Positions 733 through 37,934 of a DNA stretch of 64,000 nucleotides are shown here, piece after piece. Every line of letters begins with the position of its first letter. Position 1 is the stretch's first letter. A model generated the notes under the pieces. The model saw only the letters and a list, made by a program, of their open reading frames with translations. It ran no database searches and had not been told where the DNA came from. Origin of the DNA: Pseudomonadota bacterium (lineage in GTDB: Bacteria; Pseudomonadota; Gammaproteobacteria; Burkholderiales; Rhodocyclaceae); assembly GCA_026399515.1 (NCBI GenBank), contig JAPLQT010000041.1, forward strand, positions 1 to 64,000. Reading direction: 5' to 3'. A program made the translations under genes and the position numbers.

Positions 733-2256
733 TCAGCCGGCGGCCAAGACGTCGCTGTTCCTGGCTTTCGTGCGGCGCAGGCGAAACTCCATGTTCAAGC
801 CGGCCCATTGTTTCGCCTCTTCATCAAGCGCCGCGGCTGTCATCGGCGAGACCGACAACCAGGCCTCATCGACCGTCATCTGAAAGCCGCGTTCGATGAT
901 GGCGACCGAGTAAGCGGGCGGGGACTCATCGTCGCGGGCTCGATGCAGCAGCGCCGCCAGGCGCATGCAAAATATCAGCAGCCAGTCGCTCGACTCCCGG
1001 GTGATCGCCTGCAGCCTCTCCAGCTTGCCGCGGTGTGCCAGTACCAGGCGCGAAAGACGGCCCTGGTCCATCTTGGAAAAACCGGGCATGTCGGCGTTGG
1101 CAAGTATGTAGGCACTGTGCTTGTGGTAACTGGAATGCGCGACCGAAATCCCGATCTCGTGCAGGCGCGCCGCCCACACCAGGAACTGGGCACCTGTCTG
1201 CTCCCGTGTATCCGGGTCGGGTAGCAGTTGTTGCAGCAACGTCAGTGCGCTCTGGCTGACGCGCGCCGCCTGACGCCGATCGACCTGATAGCGTTGCATG
1301 AAATGACCGACCGTCGCCTCGCGCTGATCGTCGTGGTGATAGCGGCCCAGCAAGTCGTACAGCACTCCCAGGCGCAGCGCGCCCTCGGAGAACAGCACGT
1401 GCTCCAGTCCGAATTCCTTGAACACCGCCGACATGATGCTCAGTCCTCCGGGCAGCACCGGCACACGATCCGCCCGCAAGCCTTCGAGGCGCAACTGGCC
1501 GATTTCTCCCGCGCGCAACAGCAAGCCCTTGAGCCGCTCGATGCCGCCCAGGGTAATGCCGGGCAGCGCGTCATCGTTGAGCCCATTGAGCTCCAGCAAA
1601 TCGACGATGGCCTTGGCGGTGCCGGAGGAACCCACCGCTTCCTCCCATCCCGTCTCGCGATAAGCGGACACGATGGTTTGCAATTCCTTGCGCGCCGCCA
1701 GCTCGGCCTCCTTCATGGCATGCTTGAGGATGCGCCCGCGCGGAAAATATTTCAGGCTGTGGCTGACGCAACCCATGTACAGGGATTCGAGTTGCAGCGG
1801 CACGAAGTTGCGCCCGACGATGAACTCCGTCGAGCCTCCACCAATGTCGATCACCAGTTGCTGGGTACGCGGATTGGCCAGGCTGTGGGCGACACCCAGA
1901 TAAATCAGGCGGGCCTCCTCTCGTCCGGCGATGACCTCGATCGGAAAGCCGAGTGCGGCTTCCGCCTGTGCCAGAAACTGCGGGGCGTTCTTCGCCACGC
2001 GCAGAGTGTTGGTCGCCACCGCCCGCACCGCACCGGGAAGAAATCCACGCATGCGTTCGCCAAAACGGCCCAAGGTCTCCAGCGCCCGCAGTTGGGACGC
2101 GCCGTCGAGGGTCCTTTCCTCGGTCAGTCCGGCCGCCAGCCGCACCGCTTCCTTGAGAGAGTCAAGGGGATAAATCTGATTCCCGACGATGCGCCCAACC
2201 TGCAGGCGAAAACTGTTCGAGCCAAGGTCAACCGCGGCAATCAGTTCGTAAGTCAA
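733..2256 (-). CDS. ppx: Exopolyphosphatase (Ppx/GppA family)
   Basis: This 507-residue cytoplasmic enzyme removes terminal phosphates from polyphosphate and may also act on pppGpp, as the Ppx/GppA family does. The N-terminal actin-like ATPase fold shows the first phosphate loop near residues 10-17 (DLGSNSFR), a GREEA segment at 111-115 with the expected catalytic glutamate, and the second loop VIDIGGGSTEF at about 135-145. The C-terminal third (about 315-507) matches the HD-like helical domain of long Ppx proteins. It is divergent from ppk1, the polyphosphate-making enzyme, across about 150 bases, a common pairing. No clear Pho box was found between them. Which activity dominates, polyphosphate or pppGpp, is not visible. 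Confidence 0.93.
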   Translation of the reverse strand: MTYELIAAVDLGSNSFRLQVGRIVGNQIYPLDSLKEAVRLAAGLTEERTLDGASQLRALETLGRFGERMRGFLPGAVRAVATNTLRVAKNAPQFLAQAEAALGFPIEVIAGREEARLIYLGVAHSLANPRTQQLVIDIGGGSTEFIVGRNFVPLQLESLYMGCVSHSLKYFPRGRILKHAMKEAELAARKELQTIVSAYRETGWEEAVGSSGTAKAIVDLLELNGLNDDALPGITLGGIERLKGLLLRAGEIGQLRLEGLRADRVPVLPGGLSIMSAVFKEFGLEHVLFSEGALRLGVLYDLLGRYHHDDQREATVGHFMQRYQVDRRQAARVSQSALTLLQQLLPDPDTREQTGAQFLVWAARLHEIGISVAHSSYHKHSAYILANADMPGFSKMDQGRLSRLVLAHRGKLERLQAITRESSDWLLIFCMRLAALLHRARDDESPPAYSVAIIERGFQMTVDEAWLSVSPMTAAALDEEAKQWAGLNMEFRLRRTKARNSDVLAAG

Positions 2257-34274: not shown

Positions 34275-34736
34275 ATGACACATAGACTTAGGGAGCCAGG
34301 CAGTGAAATCGACTTCGGCCACCTCCCCGATCTCATCGGCTACCAGTTGCGCCTGGCGCAAATTGCGATCTTCCGCGATTTCGCGCTGACCCTGGGCGAA
34401 CTCGATATCACCCCGGGCTTGTTCGGGGTGCTGACCATCATCGAAGCCAACCCCGGACTGAAGCAAACCGAGTTGGCCAAGGCGACACATCTGGACCGCT
34501 CCACGGTCGTCTCGGTGATCGATAACCTGGAGCGTCGCGTCCTGGTCGAGCGGCGTGCCGCAGCAAGCGATCGGCGCTCGAATTCCCTGCACCTCACGGC
34601 CGAAGGCAAAACCCTGTTGAAGAAACTCAAGAAGCTGGTCGCCGAACACGAACAACGCATCAAGGGCAATCTGAGCGAAGCCGAGCAGGCGACGCTGATC
34701 CGCCTGATGCGCAAAATCCTGCCGGAGCATCGTTAA
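34275..34736 (+). CDS. MarR-family transcriptional regulator
   Basis: A 153-residue winged-helix regulator. The DNA-binding core is LKQTELAKATHLDRSTVVSVIDNLE with the wing AAASDRRSNSLHLT, flanked by dimerisation helices. MarR proteins of this type (BadR, HbaR-like neighbours, PaaX-independent aromatic regulators) often release DNA when bound by an aromatic acid or CoA thioester. Position supports control of the divergent importer and of the downstream oxidoreductase, 27 bases away. The effector is unknown. Confidence 0.88.
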   Translation: MTHRLREPGSEIDFGHLPDLIGYQLRLAQIAIFRDFALTLGELDITPGLFGVLTIIEANPGLKQTELAKATHLDRSTVVSVIDNLERRVLVERRAAASDRRSNSLHLTAEGKTLLKKLKKLVAEHEQRIKGNLSEAEQATLIRLMRKILPEHR

Positions 34737-34763
34737 TCGCAGCGAATGTTAGGAGAATCGAAC

Positions 34764-37088
34764 ATGGATATCCGCCAAAAAGTCGACCTGCTGTGCCAGC
34801 GCATGTACGATGCGCCGCAGTTTCCCAGCCAGGGCGCGGTGCTGTTCGTCGACCTGGAACGACAGACCACCCGTCGCAAATACCTGTCGGCCGATGTGTT
34901 GCGCTCCTTCCTCGGCGGCCGCGGCGCGAACATGTATCTGCTCTATAACTTGTTGCAGGAAGAACTCGAAGCGCTGAATCCGGAAATCCCCTTGATATTC
35001 GGCGCAGGCACACTCACCGGCAGCATGCCCTCCGCCACCCGCGGCAACTTCACCAGCAAGTCGCCCGAGTCCCACGCCATTCTCGACACCAATGGCGGAG
35101 ATTACTTTCCGGCTTTCGTCAAGCGCCACGGCTACGACCACCTGGTCATCTATGGCCGGGCCGCCCAATGGTCGCTGCTCAAGATCGCCTACGACCATGT
35201 CGAGTTTCTCGATGCCACGCCCTATGTCGGATTGGACAACCTCGACATGGCCAGCGCCGTCGAGCGCGATTTCGATTGCACCGAACGCAAGGACATGGCC
35301 ATGGCGCGCATCACCAGCGCCGGGGAGAACCTGGCCCTGTGCAGCGGCATCATGGGCGGAATCAAGGCGATCTGGGCGCGAGGCGGCGCCGGCGCAAAAA
35401 TGGGCGCGCACAAGCTGAAGGCGATCGTGGTGCTGGGCAAGCCCATCGAGCAGGAGGAGAAGGGCGCGCTCAAGGCCTACAACAAGGTCATCGGCAAGAA
35501 GATCACCTCGACCAGCGTCATCAAGAATGCCTTGAAGAAAGTCGGCACGCCTTTCCTCTACAAGCCCAGCCGCGTGCTCGGCGCGATGGGCGCCTTGAAC
35601 AACCAGCAGACGACTTGGCACGCCACGCTCGACGCGGACAATTTCGATCCCTACCGGCCCGGAATGGACGGCTGCTTCAAGTGCCCCGTGCATTGCCGCA
35701 ACCAGAACGACATGCTGCCCGAAGGCAAAGGTGGCTGGGGCGCCGCCGCGCTCAAGGGTCTCAACGGTAACGCCAGCTACGACAAGGCCCAGGCCCAGAT
35801 CGACCATCAGAAGCTACGGACCTATCATGGCATCCACGGCAACGATGTTTATGACAAATACGACAAGGGCGACGGCCCGGAATACGTGACCCTCGGCAAG
35901 TTCGGTCCGTTGATCGGCATCAAGGAACCCGAGCAGGTACTGCGCCTGAACAACATCCTCAACGACCTGGGGCTGGATTCAGCCAGCACCGGTAGCGCCA
36001 TCGCCTGGGCCATGGAACTGTGGCAGCGCGGCATCATCAGCGCGAAGGATACCGGCGGCCTGGATCTCTCCTGGGGCAACTACCCGGTGATCGAACAATT
36101 GTTGTTCATGACCGCCAGGCGCGAAGGCTTCGGCGACACCATCGCCGATTCGGCGCGCGCCGCGGAGAATGGTAAATACCCGGCGGAGGCGCTCGACTAC
36201 TGCATGGCGGTGAAGGGGCTGTTCCAATCCGATCCCCACGATGCGCGCATCCTCAAGGCCTTCGCGCTCGGCCTGTCGGTGGCGACGCGCGGCATGGACC
36301 ATCTGCGCAACCGGGTCACACTCGAGATCAACGCCCGCATCAACGACGACCCTGCCTTCAAGGCTGCCCTGTATGGCGGGTCGGTATCGGCGCTGCCAAC
36401 CTCATACGACGGCAAGGAGTATGCCGTGCGCCGCTGCGAGAACACTTTCGCCGCCGGGGATTCCATCGGCATGTGCCGCTTCAACACCAAGCTGTTTAAT
36501 TCGCCCACCCTGCCCGACTGCGAAGACTTTGCCCAGCAACTCAGCGCGCTGACAGGCGAGGCTTTCGATGCCGCGAAAGTGGACGAGAATGGACACAACA
36601 TCAGCGGCCTGGAGCACATGCTGAACTTCCGGCTCGGCTTGCGCGCCAAGGACGACACGCTGCCCAAACGCTGGTTCGAGGAAGCCATCGTGTCCGGGCC
36701 TTTCAGCGGTGAAAAGATCGACCGCGCCCAGTTCGAGGAACTCAAGAGCCGCTTCTACCGGCTCACCGGCCTGAATGCCGAAGGCACGCCGTCTGTTCCA
36801 TGGCACGAACAGCTGTCAAGAATCACGACTGGATTTTCGCTGCGCGTCGACCTGCCTCGGGCTCTGCCCGGCGCGCCCGAAAAGGCCATTGTCATCGACG
36901 AGCCGGTCGGCAACGTGAGCGAATTGCGCCGTGAACTGAAGCGCCGGCTGCCAGAGGCATCCGCCGATCTCGACGACAAGACGCTGAATGTCGCGGTCAA
37001 TGGCCATATGCTGCTGGCCGGCGAAGGCGGTGCCGCCTTGTCCAGCGGCGACCGGGTGACGCTGGTGCCGATATTCGCTGGGGGATAG
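34764..37088 (+). CDS. Aldehyde:ferredoxin oxidoreductase-family tungsto/molybdoenzyme with C-terminal MoaD/ThiS-like domain
   Basis: A 774-residue member of the AOR family, which oxidises aldehydes to acids using a bis-pterin tungsten or molybdenum centre and a [4Fe-4S] cluster. Domain 1 starts at about residue 24 and contains LGGRGANMYLLY and SKSPESHAILDTNGG. The cluster cysteines are Cys304, Cys307 and Cys311 (CFKCPVHC) with the distal Cys571 in GDSIGMCRF, matching the Cys-x2-Cys-x3-Cys and DSxGxC pattern. Residues from about 690 form a separate beta-grasp domain ending VTLVPIFAGG, like MoaD or ThiS with their terminal Gly-Gly. Such a fusion is unusual; AOR proteins normally end near 600-650. 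ATG 34764 has an AGGAG site. No AorA/AorC-type electron partners are adjacent. BamB, also of this family, is an alternative but lacks its partner genes here. Confidence 0.85.
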   Translation: MDIRQKVDLLCQRMYDAPQFPSQGAVLFVDLERQTTRRKYLSADVLRSFLGGRGANMYLLYNLLQEELEALNPEIPLIFGAGTLTGSMPSATRGNFTSKSPESHAILDTNGGDYFPAFVKRHGYDHLVIYGRAAQWSLLKIAYDHVEFLDATPYVGLDNLDMASAVERDFDCTERKDMAMARITSAGENLALCSGIMGGIKAIWARGGAGAKMGAHKLKAIVVLGKPIEQEEKGALKAYNKVIGKKITSTSVIKNALKKVGTPFLYKPSRVLGAMGALNNQQTTWHATLDADNFDPYRPGMDGCFKCPVHCRNQNDMLPEGKGGWGAAALKGLNGNASYDKAQAQIDHQKLRTYHGIHGNDVYDKYDKGDGPEYVTLGKFGPLIGIKEPEQVLRLNNILNDLGLDSASTGSAIAWAMELWQRGIISAKDTGGLDLSWGNYPVIEQLLFMTARREGFGDTIADSARAAENGKYPAEALDYCMAVKGLFQSDPHDARILKAFALGLSVATRGMDHLRNRVTLEINARINDDPAFKAALYGGSVSALPTSYDGKEYAVRRCENTFAAGDSIGMCRFNTKLFNSPTLPDCEDFAQQLSALTGEAFDAAKVDENGHNISGLEHMLNFRLGLRAKDDTLPKRWFEEAIVSGPFSGEKIDRAQFEELKSRFYRLTGLNAEGTPSVPWHEQLSRITTGFSLRVDLPRALPGAPEKAIVIDEPVGNVSELRRELKRRLPEASADLDDKTLNVAVNGHMLLAGEGGAALSSGDRVTLVPIFAGG

Positions 37089-37112: not shown

Positions 37113-37934
37113 TTGACAGATTTTTTGGAAACGAAGAACGCATCGTCAGATGATCTCGATTTGTCCGCGTATCTTGAGCGGATCGAATATGCCGGCGATC
37201 TTGGCCCCAACCAGACCGTCCTCGAAGCGCTGCACCTCGCCCACGCCACGCACATACCTTTCGAGAATCTCGACATCCTGCTGGGCAAACCGATCCGGCT
37301 CGACATCGCCAGCCTGCAAGCCAAGCTGGTCAAGGGTCGGCGTGGAGGCTACTGCTTCGAGCAGAACCTGCTGTTCTCAGCGATGCTGCAATCGCTGGGA
37401 TTTTCGGTCACCCAACTCGCCGCGCGTGTCCGTTATCGCACGACCACGATCCTGCCGCGCACCCATATGCTGCTGCTGGTCGAATTGGCCGATGAACACT
37501 GGCTGGCGGATGTCGGTTTTGGCGCCGAGGGTTTGCTGTTGCCGGTACCGATGAAGTCGAACCAGGGCGTGCGCCACTTCGCCTGGAGCTATCGGGTGAT
37601 CGAAGAGGACCGGCTATGGGTCCTGCAATCCCTGAGGGATTCAACCTGGATGGATCTGTACGCCTTCACGCTGGAACCCCAGCAGGCCGTCGATTACGAG
37701 ATTGCCAATCACTACGTATCGACTCATCCGGCTTCGCGCTTCGTGCAGACGCTCACCGCGCAAAGGCTGTCGCCGGAGGTACGGCATATCCTGCGCGACC
37801 GCGAACTGATCGAGGATCGTGGCGATAAGCAGACCGTCCGGATGCTGGCCGACAATGCCGAACTGCTGGATGTTCTCAAGCAAACCTTTGGCCTGAGCTT
37901 TCCTCCCGGAACACGCTTTTCTGGTCTACGATGA
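37113..37934 (+). CDS. nat: Arylamine N-acetyltransferase
   Basis: A 273-residue NAT that transfers acetyl from acetyl-CoA to aromatic amines or hydrazines. The catalytic triad is visible: Cys81 in RGGYCFEQN, His118 in RTHMLLLVE and Asp133 in WLADVGFG. HIPFENLDILLG is another family block. There is no in-frame ATG near the start; TTG 37113 is the best candidate, 24 bases after the oxidoreductase stop. It is probably the last gene of the marR unit. Its place there suggests modification of an aromatic amine or thioester, but the physiological substrate is unknown. Confidence 0.88.
   Translation: MTDFLETKNASSDDLDLSAYLERIEYAGDLGPNQTVLEALHLAHATHIPFENLDILLGKPIRLDIASLQAKLVKGRRGGYCFEQNLLFSAMLQSLGFSVTQLAARVRYRTTTILPRTHMLLLVELADEHWLADVGFGAEGLLLPVPMKSNQGVRHFAWSYRVIEEDRLWVLQSLRDSTWMDLYAFTLEPQQAVDYEIANHYVSTHPASRFVQTLTAQRLSPEVRHILRDRELIEDRGDKQTVRMLADNAELLDVLKQTFGLSFPPGTRFSGLR

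Follow-up and report, generated by a model that had tools for sequence, protein, structure and literature searches.

An AOR-family tungstopterin oxidoreductase with a C-terminal sulfur-carrier-like domain encoded in a Rhodocyclaceae bacterium

Carriers encoded next to oxidoreductases of the AOR family have been proposed to serve tungsten cofactor synthesis, as stated in the accessible parts of the corresponding reports (PMC1779556; aorD/aorE, PMC6365974; WorX, PMC13328260), and the AOR-MoaD clusters described in 2006 often include MoeB (PMC1779556). Experimental information comes from Thermococcus kodakarensis. With pyruvate, deletion of an AOR-adjacent Ubl left about 54% of the AOR activity and no detectable FOR activity, while with elemental sulfur the Ubl triple mutant showed no difference; other Ubls could partly stand in, and Thermococcus Ubls both carry sulfur and form conjugates, according to the accessible text of that study (PMC11323500). 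Concerning the enzyme itself, a 2026 classification describes, in its accessible part, Thr243, Glu313, Tyr427 and His448 of the P. furiosus enzyme as little varied, especially in most aldehyde-oxidising members (PMC13328260).

The gene analyzed here lies in a window of 64,000 nucleotides, i.e. the whole stretch of DNA that was studied, and encodes an AOR-family core with a carrier-like C-terminal domain. A preliminary description of the locus regarded such a fusion as a new arrangement, which has to be corrected, since a MoaD-AOR fusion was reported for Azoarcus by Iyer, Burroughs and Aravind in 2006 (PMC1779556). The open-access literature yielded no later work on the fused protein.

The fused gene and its C-terminal domain

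The features of the locus are as follows.

34275..34736, + strand: MarR-family regulator (PF01047, E 8.7e-13), 27 nt upstream of the fused gene, probably in the same operon
34751..34755, + strand: AGGAG, likely ribosome-binding site for ATG 34764, read directly
34764..37088, + strand: fused gene, AOR-family tungstopterin oxidoreductase with a C-terminal ubiquitin-like (ThiS/MoaD superfamily) domain, 774 aa
34836..35438, + strand: AFOR_N, residues 25-225 (PF02730, E 6.1e-48)
35484..36809, + strand: AFOR_C, residues 241-682 (PF01314, E 2.6e-85)
35673..35696, + strand: cluster cysteines C304, C307 and C311, each in 58/58 homologues
35886..35888, + strand: V375, aligned with Glu313 of P. furiosus AOR (55 Val, 1 Ile and 2 Ala of 58)
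36237..36239, + strand: H492, aligned with Tyr427 of P. furiosus AOR (His in 58/58)
36474..36476, + strand: fourth cluster cysteine, C571 (DSIGMC), in 58/58
36834..37085, + strand: ubiquitin-like sulfur-carrier domain, residues 691-774 (about 84 residues; PF02597; MoaD fold, Z 11)
37080..37085, + strand: terminal Gly773-Gly774, stop directly after, as in 62/62 fused 3' ends
37113..37934, + strand: arylamine N-acetyltransferase-like gene (PF00797), 24 nt downstream

The AGGAG stands 8 nt 5' of ATG 34764, and M1 is conserved at 90% or more among the 58 aligned homologues. In the 774-aa protein AFOR_N, AFOR_C and ThiS (PF02597, residues 710-774) all score above cut-off, PF02597 giving 32.1 bits (E 1.7e-7) on the whole protein and 36.3 bits (E 8.1e-9) on the tail alone, for a cut-off of 22.5. 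The core of the predicted model matches 9mqx_D with a Z of 42.0 (562 residues, rmsd 2.3) and 1aor_A with a Z of 38.5, and the four cluster cysteines pointed out in the preliminary description (304, 307, 311 and 571) are kept by every one of the 58 homologues. The PF02597 match and the predicted fold confirm that the gene product is an AOR-family core with a beta-grasp tail of the ThiS/MoaD superfamily ending in Gly-Gly, as had been proposed from the sequence.

AlphaFold2 modelling of the whole protein (mean pLDDT 79.8) gives the tail a beta-grasp fold, with pLDDT of 81-94 in ten-residue blocks from residue 691 and 47 in the last block; residues 685-774 modelled alone, a check proposed earlier, take the same fold (mean pLDDT 83.1). 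The best PDB match of the tail by VIA-align is MoaD (1nvi_D, Z 11.3, rmsd 2.1, 78 of 81 residues; Z 11.1 for residues 692-774 of the whole-protein model), with CysO (4n6e_B, Z 10.6) and SAMP1 (4hro_B, Z 10.3) within about 1 unit of it; ThiS follows at Z 7.5 and Urm1 is also among the matches. Plain Foldseek places SAMP1 first (E 2.5e-4) and MoaD fifth (7.3e-4).

Which kind of carrier the tail represents was addressed with curated models, a tree and a profile. The original reading of the tail "as in MoaD" is valid for the MoaD-like fold and the superfamily match and does not extend to MoaD proper: TIGR01682 (molybdopterin converting factor 1) gives 18.9 bits for a cut-off of 66.15, and the archaeal-MoaD model 22.4 bits for a cut-off of 49.5. 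In a carrier tree of 30 rows and 92 columns, short of columns, a branch with 96/100 support parts the fused and split carriers from three MoaD proteins, each adjoining MoaE; two carriers of the xanthine-dehydrogenase-adjacent kind stand on the MoaD side, and the fused and split carriers are grouped together with only 72/64 support. An HMM built on the tail scores 76.6 bits on the separate carrier of the split locus L062 (see below), 15-26 bits on the three MoaD proteins and 34 bits on the best of 20 other carriers tried, L091, which is also the best unlinked free carrier and which we take to be CysO-like. Judged by curated cut-off and tree, the tail is not a canonical MoaD. The carrier found behind the Fd-AOR-flavoprotein operon of the same genome was considered as an identical kind and rejected by HMM (5 bits) and tree.

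The stop follows Gly-Gly exactly in 62 of 62 fused 3' ends. These comprise the 58 rows of alignment A1, L009, L010 and the second copies in L013 and L036; copies cut by a contig end (L051, L053, L055, L041), the split L062 and the other AORs L002/L003 were left out. The ends are related by descent and hence do not represent 62 independent cases; chance is excluded as the source of the Gly-Gly-stop. From residue 685 onwards only eight positions are invariant in all A1 rows (G690, V695, P705, L721, N746, G762, G773 and G774), and the tail alignment A2 (56 rows, split L062 carrier included) has six invariant columns, the last two being the GG. With so few invariant columns, the GG tip is among the most constrained parts of the tail. 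Median dN/dS is 0.37 for the tail and 0.27 for the core, with 0.97 for the highest pair (1158 non-independent pairs, tail dS 0.1-1.2), and the tail is under purifying selection.

Distribution of the fusion and split relatives

Scanning contigs for the family, in line with the proposed search for the same fusion in other genomes, gave 56 loci, 52 with the whole fusion, three cut by the contig end before the tail (L051, L053, L055) and one split (L062). As five of the six scan patterns fall in the core, the set was not picked for the tail alone, and among the scanned loci L062 is the only complete core ORF of this family lacking the tail. Whole fusions occur in Azoarcus sp. Aa7 and in seven Aromatoleum species (buckelii, anaerobium, diolicum, tolulyticum, toluclasticum, evansii and toluvorans), and the fusion is a clade-wide architecture, present in Pseudomonadota and Myxococcota. 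The concern that the extension could be standard throughout the clade and bear no similarity to sulfur carriers is borne out in its first half, for the complete fused-type homologues seen, and not in its second, as the tail resembles sulfur carriers. The family is thinly spread among sampled genomes, being found in 3 of 300 genomes of the order (the window's own included), in 1 of 398 of the phylum (the window's own) and in 1 of 195 of the phylum of L061 (the L061 genome itself). Eight loci hold a tandem pair of fused AOR paralogues (L011, L013, L015, L022, L024, L036, L041 and L059), and, L015 excepted, each of them has a MarR gene called ahead of the second copy.

Among 396 genomes searched in the L062 phylum (titled Acidobacteria), 12 gave a match with an E value of 1e-100 or lower. 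L122 stands apart from the others, being a 44% relative that belongs to another type and is followed by an iron-sulfur gene. The remaining 11 are L062's own record and ten that are 65-88% identical to L062. In all 11 the core ends by itself and the carrier is a separate downstream ORF, directly adjoining in ten and placed after one small ORF in G943. The possibility that the L062 split is a mere sequencing frameshift was therefore rejected, nine more genomes having the carrier directly downstream and a tenth one gene on. Stop-to-stop frames of 757-775 in L115, L116 and L120 were likewise discarded as candidate fusions, being upstream extensions. In one genome the small ORF that parts the AOR from its separate carrier (L128, about 1734-2147, minus strand) is TIR-domain-like.

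The split carrier ends exactly in GG in 8 of the 11 relatives; two residues follow the GG in L111 (the L062 record), two in L112 and one in L116. On the core tree the fused and split states need two changes, and a topology that unites all fused forms in one clade is not significantly worse (p-AU 0.114). Since split relatives keep the carrier next door, the link between enzyme and carrier is independent of fusion, and no other observation argues as strongly that they function jointly. As in AOR-linked carriers of the WorX/AorD kind, there is a genetic link to a tungsten oxidoreductase, the carrier being fused or at most one gene away.

Active site and gene context

Thr243, Glu313, Tyr427 and His448 of P. 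furiosus AOR align with T262, V375, H492 and H513. T262 and H513 are invariant (58/58 each), while the residue set typical of aldehyde oxidation is broken at the other two positions, with Val, Ile or Ala for Glu and His for Tyr in all 58 rows. Val and His also occupy positions 375 and 492 in the 11 relatives with a separate carrier; L122 has Thr and His. Among the five other AORs of the genome three keep the Glu, one of these three having His for Tyr, and two have no Glu aligned there. Hence, the changes are not unique to the fused family, as other AORs of the genome vary at these positions too. The AFOR domains, the cysteines and the fold place the protein in the AOR family as first described; the name "aldehyde:ferredoxin oxidoreductase" is uncertain, because two of the four typical aldehyde-oxidising residues are replaced. 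It should be noted that some 50 residues between the cysteine motif and GPEY (residues 318-368), modelled with low confidence, are present in 56 of the 58 fused rows. The stretch shrinks to 12-17 residues in L060 and L061; L111-L120, which are split forms, also have a short version, and L121 has a long one.

The neighbours scanned in the window comprise the MarR regulator, the N-acetyltransferase, a TonB receptor, a transporter binding protein and a hydrolase; a branched-chain amino-acid-like transporter lies with the alpha/beta hydrolase on the other strand. The BLAST cluster of the arylamine N-acetyltransferase-like gene was not seen in the other gene maps. The window holds no adjacent WorS/WorN subunit gene, as for a single-subunit Class I WOR. 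The earlier statement that partner subunits are not adjacent is accurate for the window and fails for the sister paralogue, many copies of which stand beside 2-oxoacid:ferredoxin oxidoreductase and ferredoxin genes. In the core tree the window belongs to a 25-row clade (97% SH-aLRT) in which MarR was called as the immediate upstream gene in 10 of 25 rows; in a second clade of 23 rows (100% SH-aLRT) a KorA-type gene was called upstream in 18. These counts are approximate because the gene maps depend on filtering ORFs by G+C at codon positions and on BLAST clusters, among them c1, into which 490 ORFs are lumped.

The fullest second context, L056:3528-10773, contains KorA, KorB, a ferritin-like gene, ferredoxin, the fused AOR and an AMP-binding CoA-ligase-like gene (a label checked against sequence in both L034 and L056, but against Pfam in L056 alone), an operon that suggests an aldehyde/acid/acyl-CoA route. 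The contexts suggest a role in the turnover of organic acids, aromatic or similar ones, in which ferredoxin would be the likely electron partner. Rfam at gathering scores finds only a tRNA in the window, and therefore no molybdenum-cofactor riboswitch.

Maturation genes and the role of the tail

The genome encodes five separate carriers elsewhere, namely MoaD, ThiS, two AOR-linked ones and one beside a xanthine-dehydrogenase-like gene. It has one MoaE match (contig C82), with the ordinary MoaD adjoining, and three ThiF-family E1 matches, an E1/MoeB-type one being on contig C16; neither an E1 nor a JAB match lies on the window's contig, C90. A MoaE match is present in 17 of the 20 genomes with the family, the other three being metagenome-assembled. 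With the genome's own proteins as tblastn queries, no E1, MoaE, MoaD or MoeA homologue was found in the window or in 59 related loci; for ThiG these loci offered no positive control, and the MoaD negative says little on free carriers, as this query missed even the fused tails.

Several other loci were observed along the way. In the same genome, L077 and L109 (contig C80) pair a JAB-peptidase match with an adjacent E1 match and may represent a ubiquitin-like system of their own, and L071 (contig C87) holds a free carrier ending PPIAGG directly beside a large subunit like those of the xanthine-dehydrogenase family; a very similar carrier occurs in L097. In L085:328-1782 (minus strand) a single open frame combines a carrier with E1 and rhodanese-like parts and adjoins JAB-like and cysteine synthase-like ORFs, a CysO-type cluster by our reading.

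The reading that we favour, and consider somewhat probable, is that of a single-subunit (Class I-like) tungstopterin oxidoreductase whose fused tail is a sulfur carrier dedicated to tungstopterin assembly and activated by an E1 encoded elsewhere. Speaking for it are the domain make-up and the predicted fold, the invariant GG at the constrained tip, purifying selection on the tail, the neighbouring carrier in all 11 split relatives, the MoaE and E1 matches of the genome, and the published work on AOR-adjacent carriers cited at the outset. Of the roles considered, sulfur supply for the pterin, which corresponds to the self-supply first suggested, is the best supported. In such a scheme the E1/MoeB-type enzyme of contig C16 would adenylate Gly774 and a sulfurtransferase would turn the adenylate into a thiocarboxylate; we infer this thiocarboxylation. 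The sulfur would then go from the tail, most likely via the MoaE of contig C82, into the pterin dithiolene of the bis-pterin tungsten cofactor that the same enzyme uses, and the tether would keep sulfur delivery near the apo-enzyme and apart from the genome's ordinary MoaD. As that MoaD stands beside MoaE, the tail is not obviously needed for general pterin synthesis. Against a dedicated cofactor carrier stand the failed MoaD models and the separation from the MoaD proteins in the tree, the higher HMM score of the presumably CysO-like carrier, the tblastn negatives for maturation genes in the window and the related loci, where the AOR-MoaD clusters of 2006 often include MoeB, the three of 11 split carriers in which GG is not terminal, and the partial replacement of one Ubl by others in Thermococcus.

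AORs can gain activity from sulfide. The tail could carry sulfur to a different destination, either to the tungsten of its own enzyme, where the sulfur would be a terminal ligand, or to another pathway, as CysO does for cysteine. Its HMM lies nearer the presumably CysO-like carrier than canonical MoaD, a supported branch separates it from MoaD, and in fold CysO and SAMP1 trail MoaD by about 1 Z unit at most; V375 and H492 make the active site unusual, and a tail attached to a single enzyme would be suited to a role confined to it. Yet it is for cofactor synthesis that AOR-adjacent carriers have experimental support, in the accessible text of the Thermococcus study (PMC11323500), and we regard another destination as unlikely.

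That the tail is a structural or docking domain, for assembly or for binding an electron partner, with no chemical use of the GG, seems to us improbable. Between the last helix of the core (678-689) and the first strand of the tail (693) the confidently predicted connection is only a few residues long, which would fit a packed domain, but docking requires GG before the stop neither in 62 of 62 fused ends nor in 8 of 11 split carriers.

More doubtful still is that the AOR-fold site, in which the customary catalytic Glu and Tyr are replaced, draws in cis on the thiocarboxylated tail, either to obtain a terminal sulfur ligand for its tungsten or to act upon the group that the tail carries; were this true, the protein would be an oxidoreductase carrying its own sulfur donor and not a plain aldehyde oxidase with a maturation tag. 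We know of no protein modifier with a 690-residue enzyme attached. A SAMP/Urm1-like tail joining the enzyme covalently to other proteins through Gly774 is the least credible proposal, in spite of SAMP1 and Urm1 among the fold matches, the dual sulfur-carrying and conjugating Ubls reported in the accessible text on Thermococcus (PMC11323500) and the JAB-peptidase match beside an E1 match on contig C80, as there is no E1 or JAB match on contig C90 and tblastn finds no E1 near the related copies.

The wider question is how sulfur and tungsten reach the proper client in a cell that has several pterin enzymes. It becomes directly testable with a carrier that is tied to its client and a natural control clade in which the two genes are separate. 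The locus also draws attention to a little-studied family of tungsten enzymes whose active site is altered and which occurs in Aromatoleum and Azoarcus, both of which have cultivated representatives.

Compared with known systems, P. furiosus AOR (1aor) and the bifurcating WOR (9mqx) share the core fold and the four cluster cysteines at 27-29% identity (structural alignment), whereas the present protein has the extra tail, about 20 extra N-terminal residues and, with respect to 1aor, Val for Glu313 and His for Tyr427. MoaD of molybdopterin synthase (1fm0, 1nvi) shares with the tail its fold (Z 11), about 26% identity and the terminal GG; the tail, in contrast, scores below the MoaD cut-offs, is not free and has no MoaE adjoining. 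AorD/AorE and WorX are ThiS/MoaD-like carriers encoded beside a tungsten oxidoreductase, as described in the accessible parts of PMC6365974 and PMC13328260, whereas here the carrier is fused, and the tail is distant (5 bits) from the genome's carrier behind the Fd-AOR-flavoprotein operon. The Azoarcus fusion has the same architecture, with the carrier at the AOR C-terminus, and is presumably orthologous; the accessible part of that report names one organism and is silent on the distribution, the residues and the function of the fused protein (PMC1779556). The fusion itself was thus known, and what is new here is its clade-wide extent across Pseudomonadota and Myxococcota, the split-gene relatives in another phylum, the non-canonical carrier, and the replacement of Glu by Val (rarely Ile or Ala) and of Tyr by His.
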